Positions 23,861 through 39,640 of a stretch of 64,000 bases of DNA are shown here, piece after piece. Position 1 is the first letter of the stretch; each line of letters opens with the position of its first letter. This stretch comes from Gammaproteobacteria bacterium (GTDB taxonomy: Bacteria > Pseudomonadota > Gammaproteobacteria > Steroidobacterales > Steroidobacteraceae), in assembly GCA_018970145.1 (NCBI GenBank), contig JAGWWY010000001.1, positions 186,001-250,000 on the forward strand, given 5' to 3'. The notes beneath the pieces are model-generated. The model searched no databases. It saw nothing but the letters and a program-made list of their open reading frames with translations, and was not told the origin of the DNA. A program made the position numbers and the translations under genes.

Positions 23861-24915
23861 CGCGATGCCTCCTTCGGTGATGCCTCTTCTGGTGATGCCT
23901 CGATCAGCATCCAGTGGTAGCCGTCCGGTGCGAAGAAGGTGAAGCTGCGCCGCTCGAACTCATCCTCAAGGATATCTGACACCGCAGTCGCTCCGGCTCG
24001 GATGACGCGCCGATGCAGCGCCTCGATCTCGAAGCTGCGCCAGCAGTACAAACTGTAGCCGAGAGCGCCGGCGCGAGAGTGTGGGCGTCGGTCTTCGATA
24101 TCGGCGTCGGCTGCAAAGCGAATACATTTGAGTTTGCCCGAACGTCGCTCGGTGAGCGACTTGCCCGAGGCCGGATCGTCAAAGTCGACCATATGAAAGC
24201 CTTCACCCGGCCGCAGCCCGAAGATACGGCGCGAGCCGGTCGCGTTTTCGTACGGGACCGTCTCCTCATGCGTTCGTCGCAGGCCGAGGACCTGCTCGTA
24301 GAAATCGAAGATGCGCGGATCGTCGCTCGCAACCATCAGACCAAAGTGCGTGTGTTGACTCGTGCGTAGCAGACTCGGGTGATTAATCTGCCCGTAAGAG
24401 GGGCTTTCGTAGCCGAAGCGTTCAAAGAAAACCTGACGATACTGCGGCTGCAGCAGGACCATTTCGCGCACCCCGACGATCGGATCGCGAAACGGGCGTG
24501 CGCTACGCGCCCCACTCACCTCGCTGATGACGGCGAGTACTGGGGGAATCAGATTGAGCGCGGCGCCTGAGGCGAGAGCGCGTTCGGTATGGTTGACGAT
24601 GTTAAGTATGCTGCTCGTCACGCGTGCGCCCCAGCGCGAGCCCACGCAACGCAGATCCTCTGTCAGACCAAGCCCCTCGTTCAGAGGCTGGTCCCACTGC
24701 ATCAGGCGGACGAGGCCGTGATCGGCATGCTGGTGCGCTAGGCGGACCGAACGAACCGCCGAGCTCACGCCATACAGTTGTTGCGCCGACTCGGCGTCGA
24801 GACGGCCTTCGAGATCAGGGTGGCAGCCGTAGGCGGCAAAATCCAACACCGCTCGATCGAGGTCGGCGACGCCGACGCAGACTTCATGCAGTCCGCCGGT
24901 GCACCGCGCGGTCAT
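23857..24915 (-). CDS. VOC (vicinal oxygen chelate) family protein
   Basis: 352 residues from ATG 24915, which overlaps the MFS stop as ATGA; the extra upstream codons do not resemble the family. Two VOC-type halves can be seen: LHEVCVGVADLDRAVLDFAAYG and THFGLMVASDDPRIFDFYEQVLGL with FFAPDGYHWMLIEA. VOC enzymes include glyoxalases, ring-cleaving dioxygenases and isomerases using a divalent metal. The neighbouring hydrolase, MFS carrier and dehydrogenase suggest a catabolic step for an oxygenated compound, but nothing identifies it. Confidence 0.75.
   Translation of the reverse strand: MTARCTGGLHEVCVGVADLDRAVLDFAAYGCHPDLEGRLDAESAQQLYGVSSAVRSVRLAHQHADHGLVRLMQWDQPLNEGLGLTEDLRCVGSRWGARVTSSILNIVNHTERALASGAALNLIPPVLAVISEVSGARSARPFRDPIVGVREMVLLQPQYRQVFFERFGYESPSYGQINHPSLLRTSQHTHFGLMVASDDPRIFDFYEQVLGLRRTHEETVPYENATGSRRIFGLRPGEGFHMVDFDDPASGKSLTERRSGKLKCIRFAADADIEDRRPHSRAGALGYSLYCWRSFEIEALHRRVIRAGATAVSDILEDEFERRSFTFFAPDGYHWMLIEASPEEASPKEASR
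23864..23893 (-). repeat. 15-bp tandem repeat at the VOC gene end
   Basis: GATGCCTCCTTCGGT and GATGCCTCTTCTGGT are adjacent 15-bp units, with a third GATGCCTC start at 23894. In the protein they give the C-terminal EASPEEASPKEAS pattern. A length-variable tail by slippage is possible. Confidence 0.6.
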
Positions 24916-26261
24916 ACGTGACGACGCTCGACGATGGCTTTGCGGAACGCCGGCATGCCCCAAGCCAACAACAGCGTGGCGAGGACTGCAGCGCCGCCCG
25001 TGACGATCGCCGTGCTTTTACCGACGGCAAGATCATCCGCAAAAACGTATTGCGTCATGACTGCCGTCAGAAACGGCGCGAGACCGATGCCGATCAAATT
25101 GACGAACAGCAGATAGATCGCCGACGCCTGCGCGCGCATGCGAGGCGGTGTGAGCACGACCACACCGGCTGACGCTGCGCCAAACGCAAAGCAGGTGAAA
25201 AAGCCGATCGGGATCAACAACACGGTCGACCACATCACATCGTTGAGCAGGGTGCACACGCTCGCCACGGGGATCAATGCAACGGCTGCCGTGAGGCCCA
25301 CGCGCATCGCGGCATCAAGATGCCCGGCCGCGCGCCACCGGTCGGTGAGCCAGCCGCCGGTGAGAATGCCCGCGGTGCCAAAAATTGCGATCGCCAGACC
25401 CATTCGGGTACCTGCTTCCCCAAGGGGTATCTCGAGCACCCGCACGAAATACTGCACGCCCCAGATTTGGTAGACGTTGATCACCATGCCGAGGATCGAG
25501 AAGCCGAGAATCAGTGAGCTGTACGCTCGCCACTGCGAGAGCATGTGGCGGATCGTATCGGGGATGGAAGCGGTATCGGTCTTCGCGGCGGCAACATCCC
25601 GGCGCTCGCGACGTACGGGTTCCGTGAGCGTCAGCACCCACAACGCGAGCACCATTCCGGGAATACCGACGAGCAGGAACGTCAATTGCCAAGAGCGAAT
25701 CGTGCCGATGATCGGCACGGTGTACTCAGGGGAACTGGCGACAAACTGGATGACGGCGCCGCCGATGATCAGCGCAAGTCCCACACCGAGCGGCAAGCCG
25801 ATGACGAACACCGAGAGCGCACGTCCCAGTTTTTTCTCTGGGAAGCTATCGCCTGCCATCGAGAAGGTTGCCGGTGACAACACGGCTTCACCGACGGCGA
25901 CGCCGATGCGAGCTAGCGCGAGTTCGATGAACCCGCGCGCCACACCACACAGAGCCGTCATCGCACTCCACACGGCGACACCGGCGGCGATGATGTTCCG
26001 CCGGTTATACCGATCGATCGCCCAGGCAATCGGTACGCCAACTCCGGTATAGAAAATAGCGAAGACGAACCCGTACAGCAGACTCATCTGCGTTTCGCTG
26101 ATACCGAGATCGGCGCGTATCGGTCCGACCAAAAGACCCAAGACCACTCGATCGATGAACGAGAGGATGTAAGCCAGCATCAGCACGACAACCATGTACC
26201 AAGCGGTCGATGCCTTGGGCCACTGGCCTTCGTCGGCCGAGGAGGGGGCGGCGTTGTTCAT
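24912..26261 (-). CDS. MFS transporter (spinster-like subgroup)
   Basis: 449 residues, about 12 membrane helices. AYILSFIDRVVLGLLVGPIR opens the first helix and loop; DRYNRRNI is the conserved loop 2-3. Such carriers take up small organic acids or export lipids. Its position between the FAD-linked dehydrogenase (18 bases upstream) and the VOC gene suggests import of the substrate of that group. A relative is encoded at 55302-56642. Confidence 0.85.
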   Translation of the reverse strand: MNNAAPSSADEGQWPKASTAWYMVVVLMLAYILSFIDRVVLGLLVGPIRADLGISETQMSLLYGFVFAIFYTGVGVPIAWAIDRYNRRNIIAAGVAVWSAMTALCGVARGFIELALARIGVAVGEAVLSPATFSMAGDSFPEKKLGRALSVFVIGLPLGVGLALIIGGAVIQFVASSPEYTVPIIGTIRSWQLTFLLVGIPGMVLALWVLTLTEPVRRERRDVAAAKTDTASIPDTIRHMLSQWRAYSSLILGFSILGMVINVYQIWGVQYFVRVLEIPLGEAGTRMGLAIAIFGTAGILTGGWLTDRWRAAGHLDAAMRVGLTAAVALIPVASVCTLLNDVMWSTVLLIPIGFFTCFAFGAASAGVVVLTPPRMRAQASAIYLLFVNLIGIGLAPFLTAVMTQYVFADDLAVGKSTAIVTGGAAVLATLLLAWGMPAFRKAIVERRHV

Positions 26262-33198: not shown

Positions 33199-35160
33199 TT
33201 AGGGGCTGCCTTTCCGAACGAATTCGGCTATCGCGGCGAGTTCCGCCTCGAGCAGGTAATTGAATCCCGGCATCACCTTGCCGGACACATTATCCGATTC
33301 ACCGGGTCGTCGTCCGACCCTCAGAAAGGCGGTCAGAGCGGCGGTGTCGCTGCGACGAACATAATCGGAGCCTGCCAAGCGAACGCCGAGCTCAGCGATA
33401 CCCTGCAGATTGGCGCCGTGACAGACGACGCAGTGCGTGGCGTAGAGGGTGGCGCCGTCCAGCGTGGCGGTCGACGTCGACGCTGCGACCTGCCGTGCGG
33501 TGTAGCCGAAGGCGCTCGGAGCGGCCACGGTGACCGGCTCGGCGGCGGCCGCCCCCCCAAAGGAAAGTGGGATTCCGCTTGCCGAGGCGATCACGATCAC
33601 GCCAGCTGCGACCCCCGCGAGGATGCTGCCGCCCGCGAACGCGGCGGAACGTCGACCAAGTTGTGCTTTTGGCCAGCTGTTGATGATCGAGATGGCGAGG
33701 ATGGCAACTGCGATGAGCACGCCAACGCGCATGGCGAAAAGCAGGATCTCAGGTGACCAGATGCCGCCGCCCTCGAAGAGCTCCGCGAGACCCGCCGCGG
33801 TTGCGGCATCGAGGTGCGCTGTGCTCGCGGCCGTCCAGATCTCTTCGATGTTGTCCTGGATCGCGGTGACGAGGCTCGCGATCATCGCAAAACCGGCGGC
33901 ATAACCCGATTGGCGCAGAACGCCGATCAAACCCGCCGCCGTGACCAGCGCCCGAGGCGGCACGTTGCCCATCATCAGGGCGTTGTTCGGCGCGAAGAAG
34001 AGCGCCGAGCCGATGCCAAGCAGCAGCATGGCCGGCATCAGTGCGAGCTGTCCGTTGTCGGCCGAGATCGGTAGCAGCGCCACGTAACCGACCGCCGTTA
34101 GCACGGCACCGACTACCGCAAGACGCCCAGCCCCGAATCGTGCGGCCAATTTGCCCGCAGCGGGGCTGATCAGCGTCGTCGACACGGCGATCACCGCCAG
34201 CGTCATACCGGTATCCCAAGCGCTGAACTCCATCGCGCTGATCAGCACGAGCGGTAGGACGAACAGTTGCACCGGTAGGGCTGCGAAATACGCGGTGAAA
34301 GCGATACACGCGCGGGTGAACTCGCGGCTCTCGCGGAACAATGAGAGATCAATCAAGGGTAATTTCGCGCGCCCTTCGTGGCGGATGAACAGATAGAGCG
34401 CAGCGAAACCGCCAGCGGTGACTGCCCAGACGAGCAGGTCGCGATGATTGTCCTCGACGGGCAGGCGGTTGAGACCGAACAACATGCCGAAGATCGCGAG
34501 CGTCAACAAAAAAGCGCCGGTAAGATCCCAATCGGGTTTCACCGCGCCACGCGCACGATGTTTTGTATCGGTGATCAGAAAAGAGCCGGCGATGGCGAGT
34601 AACGCCAGCGGGATGCGCGTACCGAATAGCGCGCGCCAGTCGTAGGCGTCTAGCAGCCAGCCGGCGAAGATCGGTCCGAGCACGAAGCCGACGGAGTTGC
34701 CGGCTTGCATGATGCCGAGTGCCTTGGTGCGTTCCGCGGCAGGATAGAGTTCCGCAGCCAAAGAAAAGGTGATGGGTAGAAAGAGCGCCATACCGGCGCC
34801 TTGCAAGACTCGCAGGGCGATCAGTGTTTGGATGTCTGGCGCCCAAGTGCAGGCGATCATCGCCATCGAATAAATGAATACGCCCAATTGAAAGACCCGA
34901 TCCGAACCCATGAAGGCCGATAGCCGCGACGAGAGCAGCATCAAGCCGGTGGCCGAGATCAGATAGCCGAGCGCCACCCACACAACGACGCTCGTGCTGG
35001 TGTCGAGTTTGTCGATGATGTCTGGAAAGGCGATCGGGACGAAGCTTGAATCGAGACTCGCGAGGACGGTCGCGAGCAACAACGCGCAGAGCACGAGTCG
35101 TCGCCGCCCGCGACTCAGGGGCGGCGCGGCGGGGGCTACGGAGGGTGTCTCGGCCGACAT
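33199..35160 (-). CDS. MFS transporter (DHA2-like) fused to a cytochrome c domain
   Basis: 653 residues. Residues 1-500 have 14 membrane segments of the EmrB/QacA-type (DHA2) transporter family, including the first helix VLASLDSSFVPIAFPD and RALGIMQAGNSVGFVLGPIFAG-like loop 5. A fifteenth helix (about 508-532, ILAGVAAGVIVIASASGI) follows, then a linker and a cytochrome c domain with CVVCH at 577-581 and Met ligand M630 in GKVMPG. The extra helix would put the heme domain in the periplasm. It starts seven bases after the beta-subunit gene of the molybdoenzyme. Function not described to my knowledge; see findings. Confidence 0.85.
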   Translation of the reverse strand: MSAETPSVAPAAPPLSRGRRRLVLCALLLATVLASLDSSFVPIAFPDIIDKLDTSTSVVVWVALGYLISATGLMLLSSRLSAFMGSDRVFQLGVFIYSMAMIACTWAPDIQTLIALRVLQGAGMALFLPITFSLAAELYPAAERTKALGIMQAGNSVGFVLGPIFAGWLLDAYDWRALFGTRIPLALLAIAGSFLITDTKHRARGAVKPDWDLTGAFLLTLAIFGMLFGLNRLPVEDNHRDLLVWAVTAGGFAALYLFIRHEGRAKLPLIDLSLFRESREFTRACIAFTAYFAALPVQLFVLPLVLISAMEFSAWDTGMTLAVIAVSTTLISPAAGKLAARFGAGRLAVVGAVLTAVGYVALLPISADNGQLALMPAMLLLGIGSALFFAPNNALMMGNVPPRALVTAAGLIGVLRQSGYAAGFAMIASLVTAIQDNIEEIWTAASTAHLDAATAAGLAELFEGGGIWSPEILLFAMRVGVLIAVAILAISIINSWPKAQLGRRSAAFAGGSILAGVAAGVIVIASASGIPLSFGGAAAAEPVTVAAPSAFGYTARQVAASTSTATLDGATLYATHCVVCHGANLQGIAELGVRLAGSDYVRRSDTAALTAFLRVGRRPGESDNVSGKVMPGFNYLLEAELAAIAEFVRKGSP

Positions 35161-35167
35161 GCAATCC

Positions 35168-36163
35168 TCAGGCGTACTTCACGATCGGGATGCCGAAGAG
35201 CTGTTTCCAATCTGCGGCGATCAGCAGATCCATCAACTCGGACTTTTTACCCTCTTTGCGGCGTTCCATTTCATTGAGGAGGGTGATCAAGGCCTCATCG
35301 ACCTTCTCACCGAAGAGATAGCGCAGATAGGACATCGGAATACGGGGATTTTCGGCAAAGTCACCGTTCTCGTCGAACGAGGCAGCGAGCATCGGTGGGA
35401 CATAGAACACATTCGGTTCAGTGCCGTATTCCGGATGTAACGGGAGAGCCACTTTCCATTGGTAGACGAGCTTGTGAATGGGGCCGTTCTCATCGTCGAG
35501 AAAGCCGACGAAGCGCAATCGTCCTGGGCATTGACGTGCACACGCGGGTGCGACGCCCTGTTCGATACGCGGAAAGCAGAAAATGCATTTGGTCGATTTC
35601 TTCGTGACGAAGTTGAAGTAGACCTTCTTGTACGGGCAGGCCTGATTGCACTTGCGAAAACCTTGGCATTTATCTTCATCGAGAACGACGATGCCGTCTT
35701 CCTCGCGCTTGTAGATGGCTTGGGTGGGACAGGCCTTGAGACAAGCCGGATTGGTGCAGTGGTTGCAGAGGCGCGGCAAGTAGAAGTGGTAGTTGTTGGG
35801 GTAGGTACCTGAACTCGTATCCTCGTCCCAGTTGGCGCCGTAGCCCATCTCGCCTTTTTGCTGTAAGCGATCAGACTTGCCCTCAAAATAGACCTCGTCG
35901 AAGTTCAGCGGCTTCTCACCGCCGTAATCTTTTGCATCGATCAAAGGCGGCATCTGTAGTTGCCCGTTGCGGAACCCGCCGTTCACCTGTTCCCAATTTT
36001 TAGGATAGCCAGGACCCGGTTTTGTTTCGACGTTGTTGAAGAGGATATTCTCCATCCCTTCGCCGCTGGTCCACAGTGTTTTGCATGCCACGGTACAGCT
36101 TTGGCAGCCGATGCACTTGTTCAGATCCATCACCATCGATATCTGGCGGCCCATCGCGTTCAA
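35168..36163 (-). CDS. Type II DMSO-reductase-family beta subunit (four Fe-S clusters)
   Basis: 331 residues from ATG 36163, overlapping the chaperone stop as ATGA. Cys motif I is CIGCQSCTVAC (17-27), II CNHCTNPACLKACP, III CQGFRKCNQACP, IV CIFC...CARQCPG. In motif III the second Cys position is Phe, the change that gives a [3Fe-4S] cluster in NarH, EbdB and relatives. No signal peptide, so it would be exported with alpha by the Tat pathway. Resembles the beta subunits of ethylbenzene, dimethylsulfide and chlorate/selenate enzymes. Confidence 0.93.
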   Translation of the reverse strand: MNAMGRQISMVMDLNKCIGCQSCTVACKTLWTSGEGMENILFNNVETKPGPGYPKNWEQVNGGFRNGQLQMPPLIDAKDYGGEKPLNFDEVYFEGKSDRLQQKGEMGYGANWDEDTSSGTYPNNYHFYLPRLCNHCTNPACLKACPTQAIYKREEDGIVVLDEDKCQGFRKCNQACPYKKVYFNFVTKKSTKCIFCFPRIEQGVAPACARQCPGRLRFVGFLDDENGPIHKLVYQWKVALPLHPEYGTEPNVFYVPPMLAASFDENGDFAENPRIPMSYLRYLFGEKVDEALITLLNEMERRKEGKKSELMDLLIAADWKQLFGIPIVKYA

Positions 36164-36837
36164 TCCCCCAAGCTTTGCAGTTCGACTGCAAGGAAATCTT
36201 TGGTTGCCTGCAAGGTCGCTTGTAGCAACGGATGCGCATCACGTCGACCAGCGACGCTATCGGCGAGATCATTCACCCACGAGACGAGGTGTCGCTGGCA
36301 AAAATCGCGTTGCGCCGCCCGCAGGCCGGCGACCAACGCGGCATCCAAGCTTTGCGACTCGTGCCAGCTCAAAAAGTGCATGAATTCCAGCAGTACGGAG
36401 AGGTGATCGGGTCGCCACGCATAATCGTCGCCCAGTCGATAGCCGAAGTGTTCGTAAAAGCGAACCACCTCTTCTTTGGCTGCCGCGTTGGCGCCCGGTG
36501 CCAGCTCTTCGCGGATGGCGAGCGGTGGACCGCGGTCACCGACCTCGAACAGGGCCGCGTAGCTCGCGCCAACCCAGACCGCGATGTTGTCGGCACGGTG
36601 CTCGAGATCGGCCGCTTGAGAGAGGGCGAAGAGCTCGGCAATTCGGCTACCCTCGGTAGCGAGCGCCTCATCGGCTATCAAAAGTCGCTCGATGATCGAC
36701 GCGTGCTCAAGCCAGGCCTTGGCAGTGCTTTGTTCGGGGGAGGCGAGTAGGCGCGAGAATCCCGCATACAACTGCGCGCGCGCCAAGGCGATGAGCTTGG
36801 CGTCGGTAACGGCGTCAGTCGTGCGGGCTGCGTTCAT
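36160..36837 (-). CDS. TorD/DmsD-type chaperone for the molybdoenzyme
   Basis: 225 residues, all-helical. ARAQLYAGFSRLLASPEQ at the start, YAALFEVGDRGPPLAIREEL in the middle, DHLSVLLEFMHFLSWHE with the EHxx-type helix and QRHLVSWVNDLADSV at the end follow the TorD-family pattern seen in EbdD, DdhD and SerD. It would hold the alpha subunit until the cofactor is inserted and guard its Tat signal. Lies seven bases after alpha and overlaps beta. Confidence 0.87.
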   Translation of the reverse strand: MNAARTTDAVTDAKLIALARAQLYAGFSRLLASPEQSTAKAWLEHASIIERLLIADEALATEGSRIAELFALSQAADLEHRADNIAVWVGASYAALFEVGDRGPPLAIREELAPGANAAAKEEVVRFYEHFGYRLGDDYAWRPDHLSVLLEFMHFLSWHESQSLDAALVAGLRAAQRDFCQRHLVSWVNDLADSVAGRRDAHPLLQATLQATKDFLAVELQSLGD

Positions 36838-36844
36838 CGATGGC

Positions 36845-39640
36845 TCAAGCGATACGCGCTTTGGCCGCAGTCACTTTGCCACGTGAATACAGCTTGAATT
36901 CGCAAGTGAAATCGCGATAAGTCTGATTCGGAGCGTACGCCAGCACGCGATAGCCGAGATGGCCATAGTCGCCGGCGACGGAGGTCGGTTTGACGAGTCC
37001 TGCCGTCGGAATCACCGCGGCAAAGTTTTGGCGTCCGCGGAACATGGTCGGATCCCAGCCGTGATACATGTAGAGCGTTCCGGGCATGATGCCGGCTGAC
37101 AAATGCGCCATGCAGACGAAGCCGCCAGCGTCGTTGAACACCTCGATGAGATCACCATCGCGCACCTTGCGCGCGGCGGCATCGTCCGGGTTCACGTAGA
37201 TATCTGGTTCACCGCGTTGCAGTGACACGAGGAAAGAGTCGTCGCGCCACATGCTGTGGATGCCGTGACGCGCGTGACCCATCGTCATTTGTAGCGGATA
37301 GCCCTTTTGCTTGAGCGGCGGATGGTAGACCGGTAGCGCTTCGTCAAACTTCAGGAACCACTCGTGATCGATGTAGAACTGCTGGCGACCAGTAAGTGTT
37401 TCGTAGGGGCGTTTCTCATGCACCGACTCGGCGATATCGGCATGGAACGGGCTTTCATCTGAATTCCAGACGGTGCTGTCGCGCGATTCATCGACACGTA
37501 CGATGCCCTTGGCGGCCAATTCTGCAAAGCTCATCTTCGGAATGCCGGGCGTCGCGTTGATGATGAATTGCACGATATCGCGCGAGTCGCGAATCGCGCC
37601 ATCCATCGTGTAGAGCTCGAGCGTCCGCTTGAGGTCGCGGCGGAAGGTGCGACCGTCGACATCGTCTTTGATGGCGGGGGTCGCTTTTTCTCGGGCGATC
37701 GTACTGATCGCCGCCGAAATGCGCCGTAGCGCTTCGAAGTCGTCCACGGCTTCGCCTAGGGGCTTGACCGCGGTGTCGAGCACCTGCACGTACGGGTGGC
37801 GCGACTGCAGCATGATGTCGGCGCGCTCGTAGTGGTGCGCGATCGGGAGCACGATATCGGCGTGATGCATGGTGATGCCGGCATCCGGTACCAGTGCCAC
37901 GATCATCTCGAGCTTTTCGAAGGCTTCTGTACGCCAGCGATTGCCCGAAGCGCGCCAGTTGGCGCCGTTCTCGCCCGCGAAGATGCCCATCTTCCAGCCG
38001 TTTTTGCCGTATTGCGGGAACCAGTCCTCCTTGAGGCTGTGTTGATAGTGCGAGTCGAACTCATCGGCGAGCTTCTTGCCGTAGATCTTCTCGTTGAGCT
38101 GCTTCATCTTGCCGTGGTCGTAGTCCCACAGCGTCGAGGCAACCACCCGTGAGGCAGCGCCGACACCCGCAAAGGCGAACGAGGTGATCCCGCGTGATTT
38201 GGGTCCGTTGGCCATTTGAACGCCGCCACCCTCGTGGCCCGTCGCGCCCGTCAGCGCGCACAGCAGTACCATCGAGCGTTGCAGAATATCGCCGTGCAGC
38301 CATTTGCAGGCCGAGAAGCCGGCATAGATCATGGCTCGCTGACCGGCCTTGGCGAACTCGCGCGCCACCGTGCGCATCGCCTTCGGGTTGAGGCCGGTCT
38401 CTGTCGACATCTTCTCCGGGCTGTGCTCGGTAGCGCGTTTCCTCAGTAGCGCGAACACCGTGGTCACCGTCACCTTGCCGGTGCGTGTCTCGACGGTCCA
38501 GCGACCTTCGAGCGCGGGTTCGATGTTGCCAAGCGCGATCGTCTCGAACTTGCGTCGTCGACGACCGACCGGGGCCTCAGCCGCACCCGTTCCGGGCGCT
38601 CGCACTATGCGACGGGTTTTTTGATCCCAAAGATAAAAAACGTTTTCGCGTACCGCGAGCATATCGACGAGGTTGAGGTCCTCGGCGCGCAGGAATTCGC
38701 CGTTGTCTTCGCGAACGAGGAAGGGCAGATCCGTCTGTTCGCGGATGTAGGCAGCGTCGTAGAGCTTTTCCTCGATGATGGTGTGGACCATGGCCATCGC
38801 GAGTGCCGTGTCGGTACCGGGCTTAATGTTCAACCACTTCGACGAGTGCATCGCCGTCGGGGTGAACTCCGGCGAAATCGTCACGACTTCGGTACCGTTG
38901 TATTTGGCCTCCCAAAAAAAATGCGCATCCGGAATGCGCGTGACGGCGGGATTGGCCATCCACACGAGCACGCATTTCGACTTGAACACGGCCGCCATGG
39001 TGTCGCCGAGATAGGTGAGACCGGTCGTCATGTAAAAGCCGGTCGGCAGATCGCCCACACCCGAGTAGAACTCAGGCACGGTCACACCCGTGATATTCGA
39101 GAATCGCGCGAGCGCCGAGTACGAGGCCATCTTCACCGCAAGCTGCGTACCGCTACCCAAGGTGATCGAGTCGGGTCCGTGCTTGACGGCAACGTCGATG
39201 AACTTCTCGGCGATTTCGCGCGTGGCCTGATCCCAGGAGATGCGCTGCCACTTACCTTCGCCGCGCTTGCCGACCCGTTTCATCGGATAGAGCACACGCT
39301 GTTTGCCGTACATGTAACGCGCGTGGCGCAGACCCTTGTTGCAACCGCGCGGACCGTAGTCGGGCACATCCGGTGTACCCGAGCGTTCGTACTCGGCCTG
39401 TTGCTCCTCTCGCCACACGACGCCATTACGGATGTACACGTTGAACGCGCAGGTGCCGGCGCAGTTGGTGCCGTGGGTACCGTGCGCGACCCGATCCCAA
39501 GTCCACTTTTTGCGCCAAATGTCTTCGATGCGCCGGTAGGGGCGCGTCAATGCATCTGCGAGCGCATCGCCATGCTGCAACGCGAGTGCGGCGCCTGCGA
39601 GCGCTGAGTGAGTGAGAAATTGGCGACGGCTGACTGACAT
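36845..39640 (-). CDS. Molybdopterin oxidoreductase, type II DMSO-reductase-family alpha subunit
   Basis: 931 residues. A Tat signal SRRQFLTHSALAGAALAL opens the protein. The FS0 cluster motif is H56-x3-C60-x3-C64-x35-C100, the histidine-first form diagnostic of the NarG/EbdA/DdhA/SerA group. D197 in GVGDLPTGF sits where the molybdenum-binding Asp is found in NarG (D222). C-terminal MGHARHGIHS and GHLGYRVLAYAPNQTY form the cofactor-binding domain. The family includes periplasmic hydrocarbon and steroid C25 hydroxylases as well as reductases; length and D-L-P-T-G context fit that branch, but the substrate cannot be read from sequence. Confidence 0.93.
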   Translation of the reverse strand: MSVSRRQFLTHSALAGAALALQHGDALADALTRPYRRIEDIWRKKWTWDRVAHGTHGTNCAGTCAFNVYIRNGVVWREEQQAEYERSGTPDVPDYGPRGCNKGLRHARYMYGKQRVLYPMKRVGKRGEGKWQRISWDQATREIAEKFIDVAVKHGPDSITLGSGTQLAVKMASYSALARFSNITGVTVPEFYSGVGDLPTGFYMTTGLTYLGDTMAAVFKSKCVLVWMANPAVTRIPDAHFFWEAKYNGTEVVTISPEFTPTAMHSSKWLNIKPGTDTALAMAMVHTIIEEKLYDAAYIREQTDLPFLVREDNGEFLRAEDLNLVDMLAVRENVFYLWDQKTRRIVRAPGTGAAEAPVGRRRRKFETIALGNIEPALEGRWTVETRTGKVTVTTVFALLRKRATEHSPEKMSTETGLNPKAMRTVAREFAKAGQRAMIYAGFSACKWLHGDILQRSMVLLCALTGATGHEGGGVQMANGPKSRGITSFAFAGVGAASRVVASTLWDYDHGKMKQLNEKIYGKKLADEFDSHYQHSLKEDWFPQYGKNGWKMGIFAGENGANWRASGNRWRTEAFEKLEMIVALVPDAGITMHHADIVLPIAHHYERADIMLQSRHPYVQVLDTAVKPLGEAVDDFEALRRISAAISTIAREKATPAIKDDVDGRTFRRDLKRTLELYTMDGAIRDSRDIVQFIINATPGIPKMSFAELAAKGIVRVDESRDSTVWNSDESPFHADIAESVHEKRPYETLTGRQQFYIDHEWFLKFDEALPVYHPPLKQKGYPLQMTMGHARHGIHSMWRDDSFLVSLQRGEPDIYVNPDDAAARKVRDGDLIEVFNDAGGFVCMAHLSAGIMPGTLYMYHGWDPTMFRGRQNFAAVIPTAGLVKPTSVAGDYGHLGYRVLAYAPNQTYRDFTCEFKLYSRGKVTAAKARIA

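Follow-up and report, generated by a model that had tools for sequence, protein, structure and literature searches.

A type II molybdoenzyme operon with a carrier–cytochrome c fusion as its probable membrane partner

Hydrocarbon hydroxylation, sulfur-compound oxidation and oxyanion reduction are all catalysed by molybdoenzymes of the type II DMSO reductase family, and what such an enzyme can do depends on its electron partner. In the ethylbenzene, dimethylsulfide and selenate enzymes and in the chlorate reductase ClrABDC, the alpha and beta subunits and a TorD-type chaperone are accompanied by a heme-b gamma subunit, and the chlorate reductase locus holds a separate small cytochrome c as well. 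NarG is cytoplasmic and NarI is its heme-b quinol subunit; the E. coli order narK–narGHJI sets a type II molybdoenzyme beside an MFS carrier, NarK, which is a separate protein of another MFS family; in this familiar example the carrier serves the type II enzyme. To our knowledge, PcrC of perchlorate reductase is not fused to a transporter, no molybdoenzyme goes with the carrier–redox fusion MamZ of magnetotactic bacteria, and the carriers QacA, EmrB, Rv1410/MHAS2168 and EfpA lack a haem domain. PcrC is a tetraheme c-type cytochrome and ethylbenzene dehydrogenase uses cytochrome c as its acceptor (both PMC5845722, PMC8840923), and MamZ, which combines an MFS with a ferric-reductase domain, is a precedent for joining a carrier to a redox module (PMC3905215).

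The locus described here lies on a 64,000-nucleotide stretch of a Steroidobacteraceae contig (JAGWWY010000001.1, positions 186,001–250,000), referred to as the window and numbered from its first base. On its minus strand, four adjacent genes occupy 33199–39640 in the order alpha, delta chaperone, beta, MFS–cytochrome c, with spacings of 7, −4 and 7 bases. An initial annotation had described this set as an alpha subunit with a Tat signal and a His-first FS0 motif, a TorD-type chaperone, a four-cluster beta subunit and an MFS carrier with a C-terminal CxxCH domain; the positions of the open reading frames bear out the arrangement, and profiles and residues bear out the parts. G+C is even across the window, and a foreign origin of the locus by composition was rejected. 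The features are as follows (the A-type is defined with the genome comparison below).

36845–39640, minus strand: alpha subunit, A-type, 931 aa (profile matches, comparison with solved structures, tree, FS0 and Mo-ligand residues)
39557–39640, minus strand: alpha residues 1 to about 28, Tat signal region, end estimated (TIGR01409; SRRQFL at residue 4)
36160–36837, minus strand: TorD/NarJ-type chaperone (delta), 225 aa (PF02613 over its cut-off, TIGR03482 below)
35168–36163, minus strand: beta subunit, 331 aa, 15 Cys, four cluster motifs (TIGR03478; PcrB/EbdB alignment; Cys positions)
33199–35160, minus strand: MFS–cytochrome c fusion, 653 aa (Pfam MFS_1 and Cytochrom_C; predicted structure; fold matches)
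33676–35160, minus strand: DHA2-type 14-helix MFS domain, fusion residues 1–495 (profile, model, fold, dN/dS 0.03–0.15)
33577–33654, minus strand: predicted 15th transmembrane helix, fusion residues 503–528, leading the chain to the periplasm (model and positive-inside count)
33202–33462, minus strand: class I cytochrome c domain, fusion residues 567–653, CVVCH at 577–581 and presumed axial Met 630 (Pfam; ligands invariant in 29/29)
24912–26261, minus strand: second MFS carrier, a possible accessory of uncertain membership, 7 kb downstream (41–42% identical to carriers adjoining the same system in families f13 and f15)

The assignment of the enzyme to the type II alpha/beta class was upheld by profiles and ligand residues. 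The TIGR01409 score of alpha (19.6 bits) exceeds the cut-off of 16.7. Against TIGR03479, the model of type II alpha subunits, it scored 851 bits over residues 17–913, under the curated cut-off of 985, with the next family at 433 bits. Alignment with NarG, PcrA and ClrA gave H56, C60, C64 and C100 as the FS0 set, the His and three Cys of a type II alpha, and placed D197 at the position of the Asp Mo ligand. Judged by these sequence features, alpha is a divergent member of the type II family. The chaperone matched TIGR03482 with 79.7 bits, under the cut-off of 152.3, and Nitrate_red_del (PF02613) over its cut-off. Beta scored 497.8 bits against TIGR03478 (cut-off 480.7), and its 15 cysteine residues form a 4+4+3+4 pattern in which Phe replaces one Cys of the third motif, a pattern that would fit, as expected for a type II beta, three [4Fe-4S] clusters and one [3Fe-4S] cluster.

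Among solved structures, the nearest to alpha is that of PcrA with 552 bits; EbdA (403) and NarG (281) come next. At the positions aligned with the PcrA aromatics, which we take to be F164/Y165/W461, the readable A-type rows have F, then Y or F, then W; PcrA and NarG agree with this and ClrA does not. PcrABC of Azospira thus resembles the present system in its alpha and beta subunits, in the Asp-ligated Mo, in these aligned aromatics and in having a c-type third subunit. It differs in the tetraheme nature of PcrC, in the position of PcrA outside the A-type clade and in chlorite dismutase, which we did not find in the present genome.

The claim that a heme-b gamma subunit is replaced by the fusion was examined by profile search. 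No EB_dh-type gamma (PF09459) was found in the window's own genome, which is 94.65% complete, whereas the same Pfam model detected ClrC as a positive control, and a hidden heme-b gamma subunit was therefore rejected. The locus departs in this from the Ebd/Ddh/Ser/Clr heterotrimers; ClrC-like genes adjoin other type II alphas of the same family, 32–37% identical to the present one (L068, L071–L074), but none adjoins the present alpha. The claim that gamma is lacking is supported to this extent. A c-type partner in place of a heme-b one is not new in itself, because perchlorate reductase uses PcrC, and electron exchange with cytochrome c is a likeness between ethylbenzene dehydrogenase and the scheme proposed below. 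The new part is the transporter joined to a c-type partner, a combination of which we recognised no description in our searches of the open-access PMC literature. Unlike the separate cytochrome c of the chlorate reductase locus, the cytochrome here is fused, and homology to the Ideonella clr cytochrome was rejected, since tblastn gave no match at E 1e-8 to the window or to the loci of the relatives.

In the fusion, MFS_1 (residues 27–423) and Cytochrom_C (568–650) both scored over their cut-offs, and CVVCH at 577 and MPGF at 630 supply the CxxCH and distal Met of a class I cytochrome c, which sets it apart from MamZ, whose redox domain is YedZ/ferric-reductase-like and whose role lies in magnetosome iron. 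The TIGR00711 score, 221 bits, is slightly under the cut-off of 230. An AlphaFold2 model built on an alignment of 29 fusions (pLDDT 79, pTM 0.72) has 14 DHA2 helices, an extra helix at 503–528, a low-confidence linker at 533–564 and a small helical domain, the helices being counted from the secondary structure of the model rather than from coordinates. Foldseek matched QacA, EmrB, MHAS2168 and EfpA, and together with the helix count this places the carrier part in the 14-helix EmrB/QacA-type (DHA2) fold; QacA, EmrB, Rv1410/MHAS2168 and EfpA share both fold and sequence family with it. With helix ends placed by hand from the model, Lys and Arg make up 10 of 71 residues in the short loops assigned to the cytoplasm and 2 of 81 in those assigned to the periplasm. 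Fifteen helices and an N-terminus inside put the haem domain, by prediction, in the periplasm, the side on which a Tat-exported alpha/beta pair works.

Residues C577, C580, H581 and M630 are invariant in all 29 aligned fusions, as are D37, R117, G158, G162 and P163 of the carrier part, which we assume to belong to MFS motifs B, C and D1; motif A looks degenerate in the own genus. Three within-genus comparisons gave dN/dS values of 0.044, 0.149 and 0.031 for the MFS domain and 0.353, 0.138 and 0.067 for the haem domain, and two gave 0.044 and 0.074 for alpha. The MFS domain is constrained like alpha in one of the two pairs comparable for both; in the other, the G014 pair, in which synonymous sites are near saturation, it is twice as loose (0.149 vs 0.074). 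In one of the three comparisons (G006, dN/dS 0.35), conservation is lowest in the fused cytochrome domain. The low values suggest that the carrier probably matters, since such constraint is needless for a mere anchor.

A scan of GTDB genomes with the fusion alignment, which used two peptide patterns and reaches only relatives keeping them, returned 44 loci: the fusion is present at 34, and the remaining 10 are actinobacterial carriers that lack a matching haem domain. Contig ends truncate two of the 34 (L113, L114), and L130 is a broken copy. The 34 belong to the own genus (with one record titled Steroidobacteraceae), to a second family of the order, f13, and to records bearing the titles Alphaproteobacteria, Rhodospirillaceae and Marinimicrobia; a record titled Bacteroidetes groups with Marinimicrobia. 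The order alpha, delta, beta, MFS is present at 22 of the 34 loci, some cut at contig ends, and so the search proposed by the initial annotation for other genomes with this order was successful, in f13, alphaproteobacterial and Marinimicrobia records. In same-order loci of other families and another phylum, alpha is about 64–68% identical to that of the window, and the recurrence of the order there argues that the neighbourhood is not due to chance. In the f1, f13, alphaproteobacterial and Marinimicrobia loci, the fusion directly follows beta wherever both are present. The description of the fusion as the fourth gene of the operon holds in part: at 28 of the 34 loci at least one enzyme gene lies in the fetched stretch, and at the other six none does. 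A search for the fusion in a phylum sample of 398 genomes found only the window's own genome at E 1e-75; the fusion is rare.

Both genes were searched over the same 296 genomes of the order, with a best-candidates pre-screen that scored three to four candidates per genome, so that a weak second copy could escape these counts. The alpha matches fell into two groups with a gap between them, the A-type at 64–100% identity (21 genomes) and the B-type at 49–58%. The fusion, at E 1e-90 or better, was found in 21 of the 296 genomes, exactly those with the A-type and with none discordant, and in 0 of the 31 genomes having the B-type alpha only. One genome, G128, shows a TAA inside the matched range of each of its two matches. 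The Fisher p of about 1e-32 would apply if the genomes were independent, which they are not; joint presence and absence within a genus is the better argument. Genus g40 has both genes in six genomes and neither in four, and genus g42 both in two and neither in six, the genomes with neither being those with a sister alpha. Among 24 genomes of the own genus, alpha was found in six and the fusion in six, five of them shared, and both discordant genomes trace to broken contigs, one ending within beta (G016) and one cutting the fusion itself at its edge (G021).

Eight of the 21 genomes belong to family f15, in which the alpha and fusion loci are not adjacent: G064, G104 and G145 have both on a single contig, separated by 86–132 kb, and the remaining five genomes have them on separate contigs. 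The six fusions lacking an enzyme gene in the fetched stretch touch on the concern that the gene might be widespread away from molybdoenzymes, and each of their genomes holds an alpha 66–68% identical elsewhere; these six are among the eight f15 genomes and add nothing to the count of 21. Alpha and fusion distances correlate with r = 0.99 over 20 loci, mostly through shared ancestry. The MFS–cytochrome gene is thus tied to this enzyme type across the same 21 of 296 genomes, and since the two occur together in the genomes compared, the A-type enzyme and the fusion probably work as one unit. We conclude that the fusion is a dedicated membrane partner of one type II subfamily, and the two co-occur even where their genes are far apart.

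The alpha phylogeny points in the same direction. With a quick method, long branches flagged, and alphas shorter than 500 aa and duplicate contigs left out, all 22 fusion-adjacent alphas fell into one clade of 26 (SH-aLRT 97), which also holds four f15 alphas, and the B-type formed its sister group. The placement against characterised enzymes that had been called for was obtained for PcrA, ClrA and NarG, which lie outside the A-type clade; EbdA, DdhA and SerA were left out of the tree. Azospira PcrA itself grouped with alphas of two f15 genomes (L075, 6374–9169, and L076, 6137–8932; SH-aLRT 100) and not with the window alpha. In the MFS tree, rooted at the midpoint only, the six enzyme-distant fusions formed one clade (100/100) inside the rest. 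Directly upstream of the B-type operons (alpha, for example, at L055 5161–7908, L056 9283–12075 and L065 10487–13270), a nitrilase-family gene is present at 15 of 18 loci, and contig ends cut off the remaining three; all 15 readable rows have Arg where the FS0 His would stand, and the fetched stretches of the 18 loci gave no match to the chaperone. Two alphaproteobacterial A-type operons lack beta in the usual place, between alpha (or delta) and the fusion (L131, 4133–9594, and L099, 3–4783). Their genomes have beta genes elsewhere: on the two contigs examined (L159, L160) beta adjoins a sister-type alpha, and the genome of L099 also has one next to a second fusion (L115). The beta found elsewhere in the L131 genome sits in a B-type operon, so that its A-type and B-type enzymes may share it.

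Several loci carry free cytochromes that bear on the role of the fused one. In L079 the gene directly after beta encodes a free cytochrome c of 108 aa that shares 51% identity with the fused domain, and a similar protein occurs in L157; no free cytochrome beside beta was found in the other A-type f15 loci read (L064, L069, L086, L153–L156). A membrane-anchored cytochrome c stands behind a B-type beta in L055; in G050, the cytochrome c directly after a sister-type beta has a single predicted membrane helix. Because a homologous free cytochrome follows beta and type II enzymes use c-type cytochromes, the fused cytochrome is probably an electron partner of the enzyme. It need not be the sole one, because two of the f15 genomes with separated loci, G129 and G145, have a stand-alone cytochrome c beside beta as well. 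In all six of the enzyme-distant f15 loci examined, a gene for a six-helix protein lies directly upstream of the fusion (L097 8329–8988, L101 8366–9025, L107 8287–8943, L108 8290–8949, L109 4375–5034, L111 8262–8924). The protein, of about 220 aa, has conserved His residues 12, 102 and 105 in four aligned copies, and weaker relatives of it lie near the enzyme in L155 and L156. Two copies had no Pfam match and one had no PHROGs match; a model reached pLDDT 64, with the best PDB match at E 0.07. Our guess is a membrane haem or quinone protein, which could be the real redox partner of the fusion.

The reading that we find probable is a periplasmic type II molybdoenzyme with a dedicated DHA2 carrier–cytochrome c membrane partner, in which the carrier would move the substrate or product and the haem would take the electrons. 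That a mere efflux gene happens to follow an alpha–delta–beta operon is extremely improbable: weakly similar MFS carriers are common in these genomes, but exact co-occurrence in 21 of 296 genomes and the same order in records of two phyla speak against it. The fusion might act in the same pathway by transporting substrate or product without being the electron partner of beta, its haem being fed by the six-helix protein or a bc complex and sensing or gating transport. The separated loci of the eight f15 genomes, the six-helix gene upstream in six of six such loci and the free cytochrome c beside beta in two genomes would fit this. We nevertheless consider it unlikely, as the fusion directly follows beta in the f1, f13, alphaproteobacterial and Marinimicrobia loci having both, no further CxxCH protein is listed in the f1 and f13 stretches, and the fused domain has a homologue in the free cytochrome next to beta. 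Somewhat less likely still is an MFS part that transports nothing and serves as a large membrane anchor holding the cytochrome c near the enzyme, as electron partner only. The single-helix cytochrome c of G050 suggests that a plain anchored cytochrome may do the job elsewhere, and the apparently degenerate motif A in the own genus agrees with it; strong purifying selection on the 14-helix domain in three comparisons (dN/dS 0.03–0.15) and the retention of the five presumed MFS motif residues in 29 of 29 rows argue the other way.

A further alternative overlaps with the carrier–cytochrome partnership and reverses its direction: a periplasmic oxyanion reductase, for nitrate, chlorate or the like, fed by the tethered cytochrome c. 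The rank of PcrA among the solved relatives and the aromatics shared with PcrA and NarG but not with ClrA speak for it. Yet no chlorite dismutase was found in the own genome and the PcrA branch is a different clade, on which grounds perchlorate or chlorate respiration was rejected, and in relatives the neighbouring genes encode MFS carriers, TonB receptors and C-N hydrolases. Behind the f13 operon come an MFS carrier that best fits the D-galactonate transporter family, though with a score below cut-off, an isochorismatase-family hydrolase, a deacetylase that resembles PuuE (again below the cut-off) and a GSDH-domain protein. At no fewer than three of the eight f15 loci (L064, L079, L157), the operon is followed by a related carrier together with a TonB receptor, and Marinimicrobia L112 has a TonB receptor and a cytochrome downstream and a MarR regulator upstream. 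Carriers, receptors and hydrolases of this kind suggest uptake and breakdown of an organic compound, a reading opposed by the aligned aromatics of PcrA and NarG. The balance leans towards an enzyme that oxidises an organic compound, and we regard the oxyanion reductase as possible while doubting it.

Returning to the carrier–cytochrome partnership, the genomic case, made from sequence comparison, appears strong, and the mechanism is a proposal. Most likely, the fusion is the electron partner of the enzyme and also carries its substrate or product; for transport, substrate and redox direction we rely on inference. Alpha and beta would be matured by the delta chaperone and exported by Tat to the periplasm, where the cytochrome c, a mono-haem domain, would hang from the DHA2-type carrier by the 15th helix. 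Electrons may travel between beta, at its [3Fe-4S] cluster, and the tethered haem, and onward to the respiratory chain, the own genome having two COX1-family genes. The MFS domain may move alpha's substrate or product through the inner membrane, which would unite reaction, electron exit and transport at one place. A mechanical coupling of haem and carrier, in which electron flow through the tethered cytochrome gates or drives transport and channels substrate or product, seems to us quite unlikely; if true, it would mean a redox-controlled MFS carrier serving a molybdoenzyme at the membrane surface. With a transporter–cytochrome chimera as partner, it becomes directly testable whether a transporter can belong to a respiratory enzyme complex, and A-type alpha plus fusion could serve as a marker for a step of carbon or nitrogen turnover.

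Some of the relatives are of interest in their own right. A record titled Klebsiella pneumoniae (L118, CAMCBU010000005.1) holds the own-genus operon at 85–99% protein identity, and its name looks wrong. Woeseia sp. CM1_200m has a fusion copy split over several frames beside a partial beta (L130, 344–2803) and an intact operon as well (L094). At the Marinimicrobia locus L112 (11127–18858), the operon and its TonB receptor and cytochrome c are followed by genes for a DUF3386 protein, a Rieske protein and a cytochrome b–cytochrome c fusion.
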